30,504 nt of DNA from Ectocarpus siliculosus (lineage: Eukaryota; Sar; Phaeophyceae; Ectocarpales; Ectocarpaceae), in assembly GCA_000310025.1 (NCBI GenBank), contig FN648340.1:10515-41018 (forward strand), read 5' to 3'. Shown one piece after another: positions 12,901 to 24,368 of the stretch. The notes under the pieces were generated by a model. It did no database searches. It was not told the DNA's origin and was given only the letters and a program-made list of their open reading frames with translations. Made by a program: the position numbers and the translations under genes. Each line of letters begins with the position of its first letter. The first letter of the stretch is position 1.

Positions 12901-15900
12901 CGCTGCTTGCGTTGGCGTTAGCTGTCCCTTTGGGGTGGTTCTTTTCTCGCCGTTTTGATTGAATCGTGGTGTTGTGAGCTCTGCCGAGGCAGTGGAGAGT
13001 TTGGCCTAGTTAGCCCGGATCGCGCTCTAGACGTGCGTTTGTTTGCCCCGCTGTGGGGTGTGCGCTGTACTGCTTGTTGTGTGCAGAAACACCAGCGTAC
13101 GTAGTGCAGCGCAGCAGCGCTGAGTTGGTCCACAGCGAACTTTGGGTAGGGCGAAATATGAACCTTTGTTAAGGATAATTCCTCGTATCTCAGGGTAGGA
13201 ACGACGCTGTAGGTTGCTTTTTTAAGTTGTCCATGAATCTGCGGAGCCCCGCCGTTCAACATGCACGGCACCCCCACGGCTTACCCTCGCTACCGCACCT
13301 TTTGTGGCTACGGCTTGAACAGGACATGGGGGACGTTGCGGGAGCGAGGGCGCTCTTCAGCAAGGGGACAACGCAGTCTCCCAAGCACTGCCCGACGTGG
13401 CAGGCGTGGGGTATGCTCGAGTGGGAGCTTGGACAGATTTCTAGAGCCAGGTATGTGGTATGTGCAGTGCCCGTGTCTCGATCGACTTGTGGCTCCACTT
13501 TCTTCGTGCCCGTGTCTCGATCGATTCGGCGATTTCATCGCTTCGTTGGCTCTCCACTCTGTTCTTGTCTAATGCTGTCGTGTGCATACATAGGTCGGGA
13601 TAGAAACGGCGAAGCCTCTCTTCAACCCCTTGACCCCTTTTAAGCTGTGTCGATCGGAAAGAGTGTGCGTGGCGTATGAAGTGCTTTGGGTCGAAACTAC
13701 CGCTATCCTGGCTCAGTACTTGTTGTTGCCCGGAACCGTTGCTCGGAACCCGTCTCCAAATACCGATGGCATGTTTGTCTGCAATTTTCTTCGCTGCGAT
13801 TGCCTTGTAGACCAGCCGTTCTATCTTGTGATTACGGAGTTTATCTTCTGTTCCATGGCAACGCCTTTTTCTCCTCGCTATTTCTTTTTTGTTTCGAAAA
13901 TCTGATGTACTGTATGTGTGTGCATGCTTTCAATTCAACAGGAAACTGTTCCAGGAGGGTGTGTGGGGAAACCCCAAGGGGCCCTACGTGGTTCGCATCT
14001 TGCAGGCTTGGGGCATCCTTGAGGCCACGCAGGGGAACTGGGACGATGCTCGCAAATATTTCGGGTGAGGGATTTGTTTTTTATGTTGTTGATGTTTTGG
14101 TGTTTTGGTGTTTTCGCGTCGACGGAGTTACGCGCATCATGACTGATCTTAATTGCCTGTTGCTCGCAAGTAGTTCGGGATAGGAATTTGTTGATGTTGG
14201 TGCTGGTGGTGGTGGTGGATGTAATATAACAACTAATTTCCTTTGGTGGTCGTAGTATACGTCGACCGAGCTATGCGCATCGTGTGCGCTCGTTTGTCTG
14301 TTTGGTATGCTAGCCCCGTGGGCCTTCGGCACTTCCGTCTTGTCAGCCCTTAGGCGAAGGAGAGGAAACGGCATGAAAAAAAAAGACAAAATCGCGTGCC
14401 AGGACATTGTTCTCATGCCCAAGGAGTGGGGATGATAGCATGACTTTTCGCGCACCTCCAGCCTTCATGTCGGAAGTCTCGTGGGATATGGGCGTTACGT
14501 TCTTGCCGAGACACGGAAGGAATTAGGAGTGCGAGCGTGTGTGCACAACTGTACGTCTCTCTCTCTCACGCCTCCTGCGGCACATTTCGTACCGTTTCGG
14601 TACAGGTTTGCGCTGGCGAGGGACCCGTATTCCCTCCCGGTGATGGTGGCGTGGGCCCTCATGGAGGAGTACGTGGGAGACATCGGCAGAGCGCGACAGC
14701 TCTTCGAGATCGCTACCACCACCCAGGCGGACAACGCAGACATTTGGAACGTGAGTGTACATGTACGGTGGTGTTGTGACGCCAAGCCTTTCGGTGCAGG
14801 TGGTTCGCTCGGTGAGTCTGTGGAGATGAGACAAGAAAGGATTTGCAGCTGCTGACAGTCAGTCCGGTCAAAATGACACAAGGGTGGTAGCCTTTTTGGG
14901 GGAACCGCGCTTGTCGGACGCGACAGCAGTTGGGTGTTTTTATCAAGGAGAAATAAAAAGCAAGCGTCGAACTGTCGTAGAAAACAAGGCGGTACTACGG
15001 GTAGTGGTGGTATCCGTCCGAAACAGAGCAACGTGGACATATGCCCTTGGGTTTTGGTCTCCGCCCCTCCAACCATCGACATGGCCGCGGACGCAACAGG
15101 CGGTGAAATGTACGGTGGTGGTCCCGATATTTTGCCGGTTCGTGTCAAGTCGATTTAGCCGGCATTATTTTTCCGGGAACCCCGGCATTATTCAGGACAT
15201 TATACACATTTTTTATCTGTGTCACGCGATTTCCCCGGCATGACCGATACCCGGCATTATACCGGAACCAACCACTGCATCGAATTACATTCTCTGCGTT
15301 GATGTTTCGATGATTTTGTCTAGTCGCGCGCGCGCTGCCGTCGTGTTTTCATATTGTGTGGTGGTGATTTCCCATACAGCAGTGCCGGCTATGCATACGA
15401 CAATAAGAGTGTTGGACAAGCCGAAATAGTTCTCTTGTATCCGGCTTTCTCTCTGCTGTTCGTATTTCTCAAGGCCGTAATTTCTTTTTTTAGGTCGACT
15501 CTTTTATATCCTAGCCGCTACCACTATATTTAGAAAATTATTTGGGGAAAGCATACTACCCGTTCGAGATATAGCCACAGCAGTTGAAAGTCAATTTATT
15601 GTGGCTGTCTTCTCCTCACACGTCAAAAATCGTTCCGGTCTCTGATTTGCTCAATCCACGCCCTCAAACAACAGGTGTACGAACAGGTGGAGATGAGGGC
15701 AGGGTTTCCAGAAGAGGCGGTGGCCGTGTACCAGAGGGGGGTCGTTGCCGTCATGGCCGGCAAGAAAGAACCACCGCCGAAGGAACGAGGGCCCTCTCTT
15801 CTGGACCCGGCGACAGCCAGAGGTGCGGTGCGATCAAGCTTCTGTCCTCGTAAGGGGCGGGAGCGAGACGAGTTTTCTGATTGGCTGTGTGTTGCCGGTC

Positions 15901-19234: not shown

Positions 19235-22200
19235 TCATTCCGCGACCCCGATTGGAGGGTAGGGCGCCCATTCGGCGTATGGCGATAGGCCCTCCGTAGC
19301 CTCCTCGTCATCAACTCTCCCGTTAGGGTACGGCAGTGGATGTATCCACTTCGTCGCGATCCACTTGTCCCCTCCCTCGACGGCTAGCCCCGAATGCGCG
19401 CTCCTCTCGTCTGGCCGCATCGAGTCGGCATCCTCCTCCACCGGCAGCTGTGGTGCACGCGACCGACCGTTTCACCAAACATGTATTTTGTGATTAGCAC
19501 TGCTGCTGTACACTGTACATGTAGCTGGCACCACTGACAGCAATTCAGTGTACAGGCTTAGATAGACGGTATCCTCTTCCACGGGCAGCTGTGGTGCACG
19601 CGACCGACCGTTTCACCAAACATGTATTTTGTGATTGGCACTGCTGCTGTACATGTAGCTGGCACCACTGACCGCGATTCAGTGTACAGGCTTAGATAGA
19701 CGGCATCCTCTTCCACGGGCAGCTGTGGTGCACGCGACCGACCGTTCCAAAAAAATAAGAAGGGCCCACCGAGAGGTTCCCGCCGGTCCATGTCAAAAGA
19801 CGACGGCGTGCGCTTGACGACAACCGGCCTGGTTGATTTGAGGTGACGCATATTGATGATGCAATATGCATACGTACGACCTTTCATACAAAAACACGAA
19901 CACGATGGCACTACTTCTTACGTGCGGTATCGACACACCCTGCAAGTCAATACACCCACGCATATGCAAAGGAACCAGTTGCTCTCGCAGGGTTTTTCGG
20001 TTTAAGTAAGCGCGTTGGGTAAAGCATGCAATCGGGGAAGTTGGGTTAGGGAATAGGGTCTGCGTACCCCCTCCCTGTTCAATTTCCTCATAACCTTAAT
20101 GTCTCGCGAAACAGGCAGTCCACAGGAACATATCGTTCAGAACCACACAAGACAACACACCCACATAAGATAGCACCACCCACGCACGCAACACACCCGG
20201 TCATGGTAGAAGCTACATTGTGTGTGCTAACCAAGGCTTTATTTCTTGTCTTCTCGCGTCGTGGGGGGTATCCTACTCGTACGTACCTCCACGCTGTGGA
20301 AGTAAATGGCGTCTCCCGCAAACGGCGCTACAGCCACATGCACGAACGGAAAGTCGGTCTGGCCGCCGGTGAAGTCATCGTTGAGGTACAGGATAAGGGT
20401 GCCGAGCCGCCCGCCGCACACGAGTCTGTTGAAGTCTTCCACGTGGTCGGTGTGCAGCTTGAAGTAGCCGTCAGGCCGGTATCGTGCCACCTTCGTCAAC
20501 GACACAAGCGTCGGCCAATCAAGCCAGCGTAAGTAAAATAGACGCAAAAATTGTGCCTACATTTGTATAGGTGTTTACGTATGCATAAACGCTACTCTTT
20601 CGTTTGGTGAGTTAGTGTCACGTATTGTACACAAAAATTGTAGTCGTAATTCGTACCAACGTTTTCCATCAGAGTGTCAAGTTTGTTCACTCATTTTCTA
20701 AGCGACTGTCGCCAATCTAGCGTTGCGTTGTTGGTGGAAGAATGCATCATCAGGATGACTACAGCAAAATCGACACCAGCAAGCCGGCGATACTTGTCTT
20801 GCGTGGCCGGAGACAGGGAGGCCTAGCTTACCCCCGTGCTGTCATTTCCTTGCCCCAACCGCCGGAAAGCTGGCGGCAGCACAGGGCTCGCGAAACCTCA
20901 TACCTCGTACATGCGAAGGAGCCACCAAAATCCGCCGTCGCGGATTTGTCGCGTCTCAGCTTATCACAAATAACGGCCTCACCCAAACTCCCCCCGCCCC
21001 ACCCCCACCCCCCCGGTATACTAACACCTGCCACTTCTCCATGAACGCCGAGGGCAAGCCGGACATCCCACTAACCCTCTCCGTCAAGCGTCCGAGAAGC
21101 GGCGCCAGGCAGTCGTCCGCTAGCCAGGTGGTTGCGCTCCTTCTAAGGGCGTCCGACTCGGTCTGAGCGCCCGCGCCGCCCCACGTCGTGGATTCCTCCA
21201 AGCTCTCCATGCCTTGGTCGATGATCGCCGAGCATTGGCCCGGGGACGCGAAGCCGCGCAGCCGGACCAGGAGGGGGTCGACGCTCAGGACAGCGACGCC
21301 ATCCCGCGCGTACGGCTCAAAACACTCTCGGATCTGGTCGGTGGTCTTCGTCTGGGCGAGCGGCGGCGGGGAAGAAACGCTGTCCGAGATCTCGCCGCCC
21401 CAGCCATCGCCGCCACCGCTGGACTCCGGCGTCGCGCCTCCCCTGAACTGCAGAGCCGCCCACAGGTCCGTCATGTTCAGCTCCCCCGCCTCGTCGCCTT
21501 CCTCCGAAGATGATCCTCCCGCCGCCCTCCTTATCTCCCGCCGTGTCTGCTTCGCTTCCTCTGACCTTCTCTCAAGTCTCGCCGCAACCGCTGGCGGGAG
21601 CATCGAGCCTCGAATGGCAGCCCCGGCAATCCCGCGGAGCAGCAACGGGGTCGACACACGGGGTTCCGTACTGCCCGCGGGCCGCACCACGCGGTGCACG
21701 GCGGCTTGGTACCGGCCTCTCCCGAACACCTGCAGCAGCTCTCCGGCGAGCAGCATAACGTCAGAGCCGGGCCGACAGTCCCGTGATGCTTCCGGCCGCA
21801 CCCAGCGACCCGTCGATGGCTGGATGATCTCCAGCCCCGGGGCTGAAGCGCACGGGATCACGGTCAGGAAGGTTGTGTCGGTGTGGGTGCCTGCGTGGGG
21901 GCGTGGGTCCAAAACCCGGGCGTTAGTTAGGGCGGCAACTTACAGCATACAGCAGGCTTGTAATTTTCTGGGTGTGTACGGATGTGTTGTTCTTACTCAC
22001 TAAAAACGATCCGGTCTGTTCTCAGCACCTTCTAATATACCCGTACTGGTCCAAACTGATGCGGACGGTCACAGGCCACCTACGCCAAGAGGGTGCACAC
22101 CCACTGCCAGAAATCAAAGAACGGAAATAAAAACGTTCGCGGCAAGAAACGGAGCAATACGGGATAGCCTTAAACACCGCGTGCTGGAAGCGCAGGGGAA

Positions 22201-24368
22201 CAACATCGCTACCGTCCCCTCGTTCTTCCCCTCCCTGGTCGCTGCTGTTGCTGCTGCACGCACTGACAAAAAAAAAAAAAAACACGCGTTTCGTCGAAGA
22301 CTGTGTGAGCGCTCACCGAAGGCAACGCCATCTCCGCCGCCGGCGTAGCGGCATATCCTCAGAGGCGAAGCGGACATATTTGGGGAGGACCCTCCCACGC
22401 CCTGTCGGCCCTCTCCCGGATCGACGAGGCCGAGGAAGGCGGCGGGGTCGATCTCGGGCAAGCTCTGGCGCAACACGGCTTGCAGAATGCCGCCTGAAAT
22501 CGCCGTCAGAGCCCGCTGATACATGGCGTCCACGTCCGATGGGATCGGAAAAATGAGTGAGCTCGTAAGAGGGATTCGCCGTCATGGTCCACGGAAGCCA
22601 AGGGAAACAGTACGGGGATCAGCTGGGGGGCTTCATAGGCGGTTTGGTGGCACATGACAGAAGAGAGGCGGGCGCATCTGGCGAGATCATGAGGCAAGGG
22701 GAAAGAACAGAACTCTTTCACCGCTTCTTGCGGGTTCATTGTGGCCACGGCACACAAAGTAGACCATGGTAGGAAGCTGTCCCTCTAAGCTCTGCCGTCA
22801 CGGCGTACTCACCCTGCCCTCGATCAAACCGGCTGCGGCATCACCATCAACGTGAGGGACAATCTCATCTCCGCCGATGCCCCTTGTCTCCAGAAACTGA
22901 CCAGAACCGTAGTCTCCCCCTCCCGCATATCCCGACACGAATTGTCCCTCGGCTCTGATCGGGCCGAAAGCCGCCACTTTCTCTTCAACCGTACGCGACT
23001 CCCCCAGAAGCTGCTCCGCCACTCTCCCCAGCCTCCGGAGACACGCCCTGGCCGGTTTGGGCCGGACTCGCACGACCTGAGGGGAACGGGGATTCGGAAC
23101 AGAAACCGTAAAAAAACTGATCAAATATTGGCATGAGGTTAGGGGAACGTGGGGATATCGCGGGCTCCACGCAATACAGCATGCAACACGGACCCTCCTT
23201 AGCCCCTGATGCACCCGAGAGGTAGAAAGTTTGGGGGGAAAGTTAGTTGCCACAGCAATCAAACGGTTTCCTCGGAAACGAGACTCTGTTGAAAACATTG
23301 TCTTAGCCCTCTCAATCCTTGGTCACGCCCCGCGCTGCGCCACTTTCATCCTCCCCGTGCTCCTCACGGAGACCACGCATGAGCGCTAGGTTTGGATCAC
23401 CACTATGTTCAACCAGCATTGCTACGTAACCATGACAAGCAGCTGGATCCCGGAGAGCCGAGAACTCCTATTTAGCAAGCACTTCCATTACCGAAGGATG
23501 AAGATATTTTCGGGGCTAGGCTACAGCAGTACACCACAGGTGGTGGAACGCTACAATTTGAATTTTTTGTCCTTGTATATTCGACAAGGTAATCTCGTCG
23601 TATGCATCACACGCACAAGTGGTTGTATCCAGGCTACTGCTGCTGTACAGCACCACAAGGGTGGGTCGCTATATACACACGTGGTTTGTGTTGGGCCTAT
23701 GTATTTGTATCGCAGACGTAAGCGGGACCATGCAATGCCGTCATGTCATACACGTCACTTAAGACTAATGTACCAATGGTTTTCTCCGGACAATGTACAT
23801 CACCGGACCCCAGGTTGAACTTTGTTTTGTCTCCGTGTGATCATTTTTTGTCTGTCGAACCATGCGTTGGCGTCAGCCAACCGGCTGCTACTGTTGTTGC
23901 CGTCTCTCTCACCACAAAGGTATCCAGAGACAGGGCCCTTGTAAGTCGGAGCTCTTGCCCCTCGCCGCCCAGCAAGTTCCCGTCACAGTCGACTTCGAAC
24001 GTTGTTGAGATAACCCTGTCGGCATGCCGTTGAGACTCTCTATTCCCTTCCAAGGGCTCCGGTGCTTCCACGATCCTTGCTCGCAGTTCTTGGATAATGG
24101 GGTTTAAGGCGGCCTCAGGCGTGACAGCAGCGGTAGTGGTGGTGGTGCTAGCCGGGGCGGTGCTCATCATGAGGACGGTAGTGTCGCCGCTTGAAGCCGT
24201 TCGTGCCCACGGCAGTTTTCGTGGGATCGCGATATTGCGGAGCGGGATTGAAGCACGCACATGGAAGGCATCCGCAACGGCGAGGATCACCGCCGCGATT
24301 GCTAGCACGAAGCGAGCGTTCACGACACGACTGCAACCGGTGCGCAGCAGTAGGGCGAACGTCATCAT
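19235..24368 (-). CDS. Dual 2-oxoglutarate/Fe(II) dioxygenase: IPNS-like domain fused to prolyl-4-hydroxylase-like domain
   Basis: The exons on the minus strand are 24368-23913, 23076-22813, about 22561-22317 (start uncertain), 21890-21028, 20490-20287 and 19447-19235, giving roughly 750 aa. The N-terminus has a hydrophobic signal (VLAIAAVILAVADAFHVRA) with Phe after the likely cleavage site, which suggests plastid or secretory targeting. Module 1 is IPNS-like, with Fe ligands His and Asp in GTHTDTTFLTVIP (His at 21885), distal His in YQAAVHRVVRP (21696) and the 2OG-binding RVS (Arg at 21660). A Ser/Gly-rich linker follows. Module 2 is P4H-like, with VRLRGFASPGQC, SATTWL, ARYRPDGYFKLHTDHVEDF (His 20454, Asp 20448), LGTLILYLNDDFTGGQTDFP, distal His in SAHSGLAVEGGDKW (19396) and Lys (19366). 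Both metal triads look intact. A missing short exon or an error in 22562-22812 prevents an in-phase join of exons 2 and 3. The substrates are unknown. Confidence 0.75.
19429..19746. repeat. Tandem array (2.3 copies, periods 141 and 134) duplicating the last 3' splice site of the dual oxygenase gene
   Basis: On the minus strand, cgcgtgcaccacag|CTGCC and the following GTGGA(A/G)GAGGAT occur three times, with exon starts at 19447, 19588 and 19722. Only the first leads into the coding sequence with the distal His and Lys. The upstream copies read LPVEEDTVYLSLYTE or LPVEEDAVYLSLYTE and reach stop codons after about 40-55 residues. The 7-bp difference between periods comes from an extra cactgta-type word near 19520. 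Confidence 0.9.
20001..20111 (+). repeat. Dispersed repeat family R, copy 3 (dual oxygenase last intron)
   Basis: Almost colinear with the copy at 7861: tttaagt, gttgg(g/a)taa, gcaatcggggaagttggg, ttaggg, atagggtct, ctccctgttc and cctcataac. It lies in the intron between 19448 and 20286, antisense to that gene. Confidence 0.75.
21998..22080 (+). repeat. Dispersed repeat family B, copy 2 (dual oxygenase intron)
   Basis: It aligns with the copy at 10150-10240 through ccggtct, ccttctaatatacccgtactggtcc and ggtcaca. It lies in the intron between 21891 and 22316, antisense to the oxygenase gene. Confidence 0.7.

Follow-up and report, generated by a model that had tools for sequence, protein, structure and literature searches.

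The window analyzed here is a 30,504-nucleotide stretch of Ectocarpus siliculosus DNA (contig FN648340.1, positions 10,515 to 41,018 of the forward strand), and all positions below are counted from its first letter. Its minus strand holds, from 24368 to 19235, a predicted six-exon gene whose introns are all GT-AG (exon phases 0, 0, 0, 1, 0, and 0) and whose product would comprise 732 residues, followed by a stop codon. Exon 1 (23913 to 24368; aa 1 to 152) encodes a leader and the start of a first oxygenase module; translation would start at the earliest Met codon in the open frame that runs from 24611 to 23841, and the exon ends at the donor GTG/gtgaga. Exon 2 (22813 to 23076; aa 153 to 240; GT-AG, phase 0) covers the N-terminal half of module 1, where the alignment with bacterial IPNS-family oxygenases is weak, and exon 3 (22317 to 22515; aa 241 to 306) carries Tyr297 of the same module. 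Exon 4 (21028 to 21890; aa 307 to 594) contains the core of module 1 (H309, D311, H372, R384, and S386), a linker, and the start of a second module (R556, S558, W562, and E591). The core of module 2 (Y598, F604, H607, D609, R622, and T639) continues in exon 5 (20287 to 20490; aa 595 to 662), and exon 6 (19235 to 19447; aa 663 to 732 and the stop) supplies its end, with H680, K690, and W696. Joining and translating the exons reproduced the coordinates and motifs of the original prediction; the splice junctions are predictions, and the transcript is presumably spliced according to this model.

By inspection, the leader opens with a signal-peptide-like segment (aa 1 to 34; 24267 to 24368, minus strand), in which the 11-residue Kyte-Doolittle mean peaks at 3.1 over aa 22 to 32. 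A supposed cleavage site, ADA/F, places Ala at –3 and –1 and Phe at +1, matching the motif given in the accessible text of PMC2567999. The following segment (aa 35 to 80; 24129 to 24266, minus strand) resembles a transit peptide, being rich in Ser, Thr, and Ala and holding five Lys or Arg residues against one Asp or Glu. Plastid pre-sequences of heterokonts are described with an ASAFAP-type site in the available portions of PMC2567999 and PMC4329603, and the leader is compatible with such a pre-sequence; plastid targeting is suggested by this inspection. The signal/plastid-like leader proposed earlier is thus supported by the hydrophobic segment, the ADA/F site, and the basic, S/T-rich stretch behind it.

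The catalytic core of module 1 belongs to the family of PF03171, which matches aa 305 to 390 with 37 bits in the whole protein and 29.4 bits when aa 1 to 402 are searched alone (cut-off, 23). All of its motif residues, H309/D311, H372, and R384-V-S386, are encoded in exon 4, and a solved relative of the core by sequence is 3on7 (2.1e-6). Y297, H309, D311, H372, R384, and S386 are invariant in all five aligned sequences, namely, module 1 and four bacterial IPNS-family oxygenases. The core HTD...H, the RxS motif, and the Tyr ahead of HxD are common to module 1, 3on7, and the IPNS-family or plant-type 2OG oxygenases, including those annotated as bacterial “isopenicillin N synthase family oxygenase.” The N-terminal half differs from these relatives: aa 86 to 307 gave zero Pfam matches at E up to 10, PF14226 (which we take to be the N-terminal DIOX_N domain) included, and the GFFYLxNHG motif is missing, though the alignment with bacterial IPNS-family oxygenases locates its place. 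At the other end, the linker to a second oxygenase stands where the bacterial relatives have their C-terminal tail. The label “IPNS-like” holds for the catalytic core, with PF03171, HxD...H, and RxS; the N-terminal half is diverged. No match to module 1 was obtained among phages.

Module 2 is a P4H-family oxygenase by homology. PF13640 matches aa 594 to 698 with 45.8 bits in the whole protein and 45.7 bits in the C-terminal 339 residues alone (cut-off, 27), and the solved relatives found by sequence are 5iax (1.5e-21) and the Chlamydomonas enzyme 2jig (8.2e-14); the alignment with 5iax starts at about aa 510, within exon 4. H607 and D609 lie in exon 5 and H680 and K690 in exon 6, and the metal triad is accompanied by the Lys, Tyr, and Thr of the 2OG site. 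Conservation was scored at 14 positions picked by the analyst. Among the matches listed, the metal and 2OG residues (H607, D609, H680, K690, Y598, and T639) are the same in 80/80 bacterial relatives; depending on the position, 77 to 82 of the 82 viral relatives have them as well. R556, E591, R622, and W696 likewise have the residue of all 80 bacterial relatives listed, and S558 that of 79/80; the invariance of K690 and W696 is partly built in, because one of the two patterns used for the search includes both. Three positions vary more among the matches listed: W562, which agrees with the Chlamydomonas enzyme, is Trp in only 2/80 bacterial and 30/82 viral relatives; the position of H698 is His in 1/80 and 38/82, respectively; and that of Phe604, corresponding to Tyr325/Tyr140 of P4Hs, is Phe in 2/80 and 45/82.

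Module 2 thus shares PF13640, the HxD...H and Lys ligands, the 2OG Tyr and Thr, and apparently the substrate residues Arg/Trp/Glu/Arg/Trp with the prolyl 4-hydroxylases (Chlamydomonas Cr-P4H, Bacillus P4H, the catalytic domain of human C-P4H, and P4H-TM). Six residues for substrate binding and catalysis are named for P4H-TM in the accessible part of PMC7948501 (R273, W279, E312, Y325, R358, and W457); five of the six appear to be kept, as placed through the Chlamydomonas alignment and motif spacing rather than by direct alignment, and Y325 becomes Phe604. The proline-contacting Tyr is replaced by Phe; most substrate residues appear to be retained. Unlike these enzymes, module 2 also sits behind another 2OG oxygenase, follows a plastid-type leader, and has no equivalent of Cys230 of the Chlamydomonas P4H (PMC9676403); in an alignment read by eye, Leu683 occupies that position.

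No homologue carrying both modules was found in the bacterial, viral, and phage collections among the matches listed. In a scan of neighboring ORFs of at least 80 codons, with flanks reaching as far as 4 kb if the contig was long enough and 2 kb for two loci, an IPNS-like ORF beside a P4H-like ORF occurred at 0 of the 162 loci listed (82 viral or phage, 80 bacterial; E ≤ 1e-4). Neither module, used on its own as a protein query, matched anything in viral_contigs, and the NCBIfam and Rfam searches were likewise empty. Some ten bacterial P4H matches resembled fusions, with 493 to 872 codons from stop to stop, but were not counted as such; of nine matches inspected by eye, the long ones appear to owe their length to chance open frame upstream of an ordinary P4H in G+C-rich DNA.

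Because of these apparent chance frames, the linker between the modules of the present gene (aa 394 to 506; 21292 to 21630, minus strand) was subjected to a codon-usage test. The metal ligands and RxS motif of module 1, some 113 codons, and the start of module 2 follow one another in a single open frame of exon 21890-21028. The openness of this frame alone is weak evidence, because 68 of 5,000 dinucleotide shuffles of aa 394 to 594 were also stop-free. Measured against the rest of the gene, however, the linker scored +18.5 in the joint frame and –28.9 and –9.8 in the other forward frames (stops skipped), and none of 1,000 stop-free shuffles reached its score; the five introns gave negative scores in all three frames of the minus strand. 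Fusion within one uninterrupted exon, as originally proposed, is accordingly supported by a linker that is coding in the frame of both modules. An alignment-free structure prediction of exon 4 alone had a mean pLDDT of 37.7, too low to be informative, and was not used.

The joint could also mark the boundary between two neighboring or overlapping genes: a P4H gene with its start at an internal Met of exon 4 (M403 or M446, both in frame) and an upstream IPNS-like gene splicing out of the exon. Two donor-like sites lie within exon 4, at 21566 and 21076, each with 7/9 matches, compared with 6 for the donor used at the exon end; the first, aag/GTCAGA, scores above three of the five donors of the model. 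The coding signal is also weakest in the first third of the linker (aa 394 to 430), where 65/1,000 shuffles reach the observed score, but aa 431 to 468 and aa 469 to 506 have strongly coding usage in the joint frame (0/1,000 shuffles each). In addition, the exon 4 frame is open from 21939 to a stop at 20956, which would leave a separate module 1 without a stop codon ahead of the intron. We regard two separate genes as quite improbable.

Both oxygenase families, both ligand sets, and a single frame across the joint are evident from the sequence itself. Each Pfam domain exceeds its cut-off even with its half of the protein alone, which supports the presence of two 2OG oxygenase modules of different type on one chain, and the alignments likewise uphold intact ligands in both (HxD...H and RxS in module 1; HxD...H, Lys, Tyr, and Thr in module 2). 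We consider it probable that the 732-residue protein is the product of one nuclear gene and that it combines two 2OG/Fe(II) oxygenases of different kinds, each competent by itself, with a coding linker of about 113 residues between them. The IPNS-family module (His309-Asp311...His372, Arg384/Ser386) and the P4H-family module (His607-Asp609...His680, Lys690) would each bind their own Fe(II) and 2OG and perform their own oxidation.

Although 2OG oxygenases rank with the most common oxidative enzymes, chains with two 2OG oxygenase sites have hardly been described, and the pairing of two unlike iron oxygenases in one chain looks unusual. Among the papers listed in a literature search covering few subscription journals, the only tandem 2OG oxygenases found were the uS12 prolyl hydroxylases, which a 2015 structural paper, in its available text, treats as the sole tandem cases known, with one domain metal-less (PMC4396695). 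These uS12 prolyl 3-hydroxylases (OGFOD1, Tpa1p, and Ofd1) likewise have two DSBH 2OG-oxygenase-type domains per chain, an arrangement suggested by homology for the protein described here. In the accessible account of PMC4396695, catalysis is confined to the N-terminal domain, the C-terminal one having no metal site, whereas the Ectocarpus protein combines modules from different families and has both ligand sets, the second module being P4H-type with its ligands in place. That precedent, the only one found in print, and the divergence of the N-terminal half of module 1 would suit a fused chain with one active site, in which catalysis falls to module 2 while module 1 serves as a scaffold or binds substrate, or vice versa; with metal and 2OG ligands in both modules, we find such an arrangement unlikely. 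The two-site protein, assembled from known families, is likely new. Two intact unlike sites, if true, would offer a good setting in which to ask whether fusing them channels a substrate, shares a 2OG supply, or couples two hydroxylations.

In the reading that we consider probable, the P4H module would act on a peptide-like substrate, the IPNS-like module on a second position of that substrate or on a small molecule, and the leader would direct the protein to the plastid. More tentatively, and with well under even confidence, we propose a plastid enzyme in which two active oxygenases of different families may oxidize one peptide-derived or protein substrate successively. This would place a prolyl-hydroxylase-type reaction in a secondary plastid; to our knowledge, prolyl-hydroxylase chemistry in a plastid would be new. 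In algae, plants, and animals, the ER is where P4Hs work, and the signal-peptide-like segment of the leader could serve a fused P4H of the secretory pathway (ER/Golgi) with wall or extracellular proteins as its targets, a reading that concerns location only and is compatible with the fusion. The Phe at +1 and the basic S/T-rich stretch behind it, however, make the leader look plastid-type rather than ER-only, the C terminus lacks a KDEL-like signal, and Leu683 stands at the Cys230 position. A wall role, part of the initial suggestion that proline together with a side chain in wall or plastid proteins might be the target, fits less well with these features, and we hold a secretory location to be possible but doubtful.

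The plastid-like leader on a 2OG oxygenase also brought the chlorophyll c synthase (CHLC) into consideration. According to the available text of PMC13297055, this 2OG oxygenase has been identified in a diatom and a dinoflagellate, and chlorophyll c is used by brown algae as well. CHLC has one 2OG site as described; in its dinoflagellate form the oxygenase is fused to a chlorophyll-binding domain. The model residues printed for Phaeodactylum tricornutum CHLC (H216, H298, and R312) are spaced by +82 and then +14, whereas the corresponding intervals are 63 and +12 in module 1 and 73 and +10 in module 2. Such spacing is no defining trait of the family, and it was compared through the printed residues; since it fits neither module, a plastid pigment oxygenase of the CHLC kind is kept as a weak rival, and a highly improbable one.

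A viral origin of module 2 was considered and set aside. Viral relatives share 24 to 39% identity and bacterial relatives 29 to 41%, among 80 matches listed for each; because bacterial relatives are as close and two introns interrupt the module, no viral source is claimed. At the 3′ end of the gene, a 134-bp tandem repeat (19426 to 19746, minus strand) places two further copies of the exon 6 acceptor upstream, at 19722 and 19588; it lies mainly in the last intron and duplicates the acceptor along with the first bases of that exon.

The gene on the minus strand (24368-19235) was resolved into a six-exon model with GT-AG introns (phases 0, 0, 0, 1, 0, and 0) encoding 732 residues up to the stop, and its exon 4 has the very coordinates, 21890-21028, of the original prediction. 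Two unlike 2OG/Fe(II) oxygenase modules had been proposed for this polypeptide, and both match Pfam families above the respective cut-offs: PF03171 at residues 305 to 390 (37 bits in the whole protein and 29.4 bits with the half scanned alone; cut-off, 23) and PF13640 at residues 594 to 698 (45.8 and 45.7 bits; cut-off, 27). In sequence searches, the core of module 1 (residues 304 to 392) matches solved IPNS/plant-type 2OG oxygenases (best, 3on7, 2.1e-6), and about 190 residues of module 2 match prolyl 4-hydroxylases (P4H; 5iax, 1.5e-21; Chlamydomonas 2jig, 8.2e-14). The homology of module 2 begins at about residues 503 to 510, inside exon 4 and roughly 110 to 116 residues past the end of module 1.

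The frame of exon 4 runs without a stop from 21939 until the stop at 20956. Dinucleotide shuffles of residues 394 to 594 were stop-free in 68 of 5,000 cases, and those of the linker alone (residues 394 to 506) in 623 of 5,000; the open frame by itself is modest evidence for the joint, and codon usage is better evidence. The codon-usage model was trained on the remainder of both modules (507 codons), with stop codons skipped in the other frames (a first version penalized them). The linker scored +18.5 in the joint frame, matched by none of 1,000 stop-free shuffles, versus -28.9 and -9.8 for the two remaining forward frames; the five introns scored negative in all three frames of the minus strand. 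Within the linker, the thirds at residues 431 to 468 and 469 to 506 have strong coding usage (0/1,000 shuffles as high for each), and usage is weak at residues 394 to 430 (-2.2; 65/1,000 as high). It is improbable that there are two separate genes, the first splicing out of exon 4: donor-like sites do lie within the exon at 21566 and 21076 (7/9 each, versus 6 for the donor at the exon end), as do two Met codons in the joint frame (403 and 446), but such a first gene would lack a stop of its own and would have to leave exon 4 by splicing. The fusion of both modules in one polypeptide is likely real, and its predicted position inside one uninterrupted exon agrees with the open frame and coding linker.

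In an alignment of module 1 with four bacterial IPNS-family oxygenases (from L001 to L004; 24 to 27% identity), Y297, H309, D311, H372, R384, and S386 are invariant in all five sequences; apart from Y297, these are the predicted metal and 2OG ligands. Tyr297 presumably helps to bind 2OG, as in plant relatives. The N-terminal half of module 1 aligns in outline at best; its GFFYLxNHG-type motif is replaced, and it has no Pfam match at E values up to 10.

The module 2 alignment drew on 80 relatives from bacteria and 82 from viruses or phages (a local BLAST identified one at 162 of 166 loci), taken as the best 80 of a longer list from each search, and 14 positions picked by hand were scored. Among the best 80 bacterial relatives, R556, E591, Y598, H607, D609, R622, T639, H680, K690, and W696 are the residue of 80/80 and S558 that of 79/80, a constancy partly built in because relatives were found by short patterns covering some scored positions (T639, K690, and W696 among them). 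In the viral set, H607, D609, T639, H680, and K690 are kept in 82/82, R622 in 81, Y598 in 77, E591 in 73, W696 in 43, R556 in 40, and S558 in 9. The metal triad and 2OG Lys predicted to be intact (H607, D609, H680, and K690) are kept throughout both sets. Trp occupies position W562 in just 2/80 bacterial and 30/82 viral relatives, and His occupies position H698 in 1/80 and 38/82. S95 and H245 are the position labels that we assume for the Chlamydomonas P4H (Cr). The available part of PMC7948501 names six substrate or catalysis residues for P4H-TM, of which five are kept in module 2, with equivalences set via the Chlamydomonas alignment and motif spacing. The sixth, the proline-contacting Tyr (Tyr140 of the Chlamydomonas enzyme touches the hydroxylated proline, according to excerpts of PMC9676403), is Phe604 in module 2; Phe is found there in 2/80 bacterial and 45/82 viral relatives.

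Residues 1 to 34 open with a basic segment, continue through a hydrophobic core, and end in ADA; F35 and then a basic stretch rich in S/T come next. By inspection, this fits the signal/plastid-like leader originally noted: in PMC2567999 (by the HECTAR authors), heterokont plastid proteins carry Ala in positions –3 and –1 and a Phe that hardly varies at +1, and PMC4329603 describes the motif likewise. Together with the intron-rich DNA, the leader makes a stramenopile source plausible. No KDEL-like C terminus was found in the 732-residue protein, whose cellular location we would infer from such sequence features.

Members of the 2OG/Fe(II) superfamily oxidize a target and release succinate and CO2. 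In the function that we infer for the fused protein, each module would bind one Fe(II) together with one 2OG and oxidize its own target, and two active sites in one chain appear plausible. Because most P4H peptide-binding residues are kept, a peptide or protein would be the likeliest substrate of module 2; module 1 resembles small-molecule oxygenases. Such a pairing points to a single substrate worked on in two steps, or else to a common location. No IPNS-like neighbor accompanied the P4H-like open reading frame at any of the 162 loci (E ≤ 1e-4, within the flanks examined). Several bacterial P4H-like loci (L088, L090, L100, L101, L133, L134, and L163) are G+C-rich genes with same-frame upstream open frames of hundreds of codons, which by eye appear to be chance occurrences that could be mistaken for fusions.

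PMC4396695 was the only literature found, in the text accessible, on two such domains in one chain; unlike its tandem 2OG oxygenases, the E. siliculosus protein combines modules of two different families, each with its ligand set in place. Among the matches listed, titles and the opening lines of abstracts gave no relevant P4H or 2OG oxygenase fusion in brown algae or plastids, and the same architecture may already be present, unremarked, in annotated algal genomes. Chlorophyll c synthase is disfavored, as the residue spacing printed for a model of that enzyme in the accessible part of PMC13297055 differs.

On the minus strand, a 134-bp tandem repeat (2.3 copies, 19426-19746) lies in the last intron and the start of exon 6 and carries three copies of the exon 6 acceptor and of the exon's opening bases. 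With splicing to the acceptor copies at 19722 or 19588, the reading frame would end 54 or 38 codons on, and module 2 would lose its distal His680 and Lys690. Elsewhere in the window, a minus-strand open frame at 2093-2557 is weakly like FKBP-type peptidyl-prolyl isomerases (PDB phmmer, 1.4e-3) and has no Pfam match, and plus-strand open frames at 13179-14855, with TPR_14 at 17 and 14.9 bits (below the cut-off of 23.5), are possibly exons of a TPR/HAT-repeat gene.
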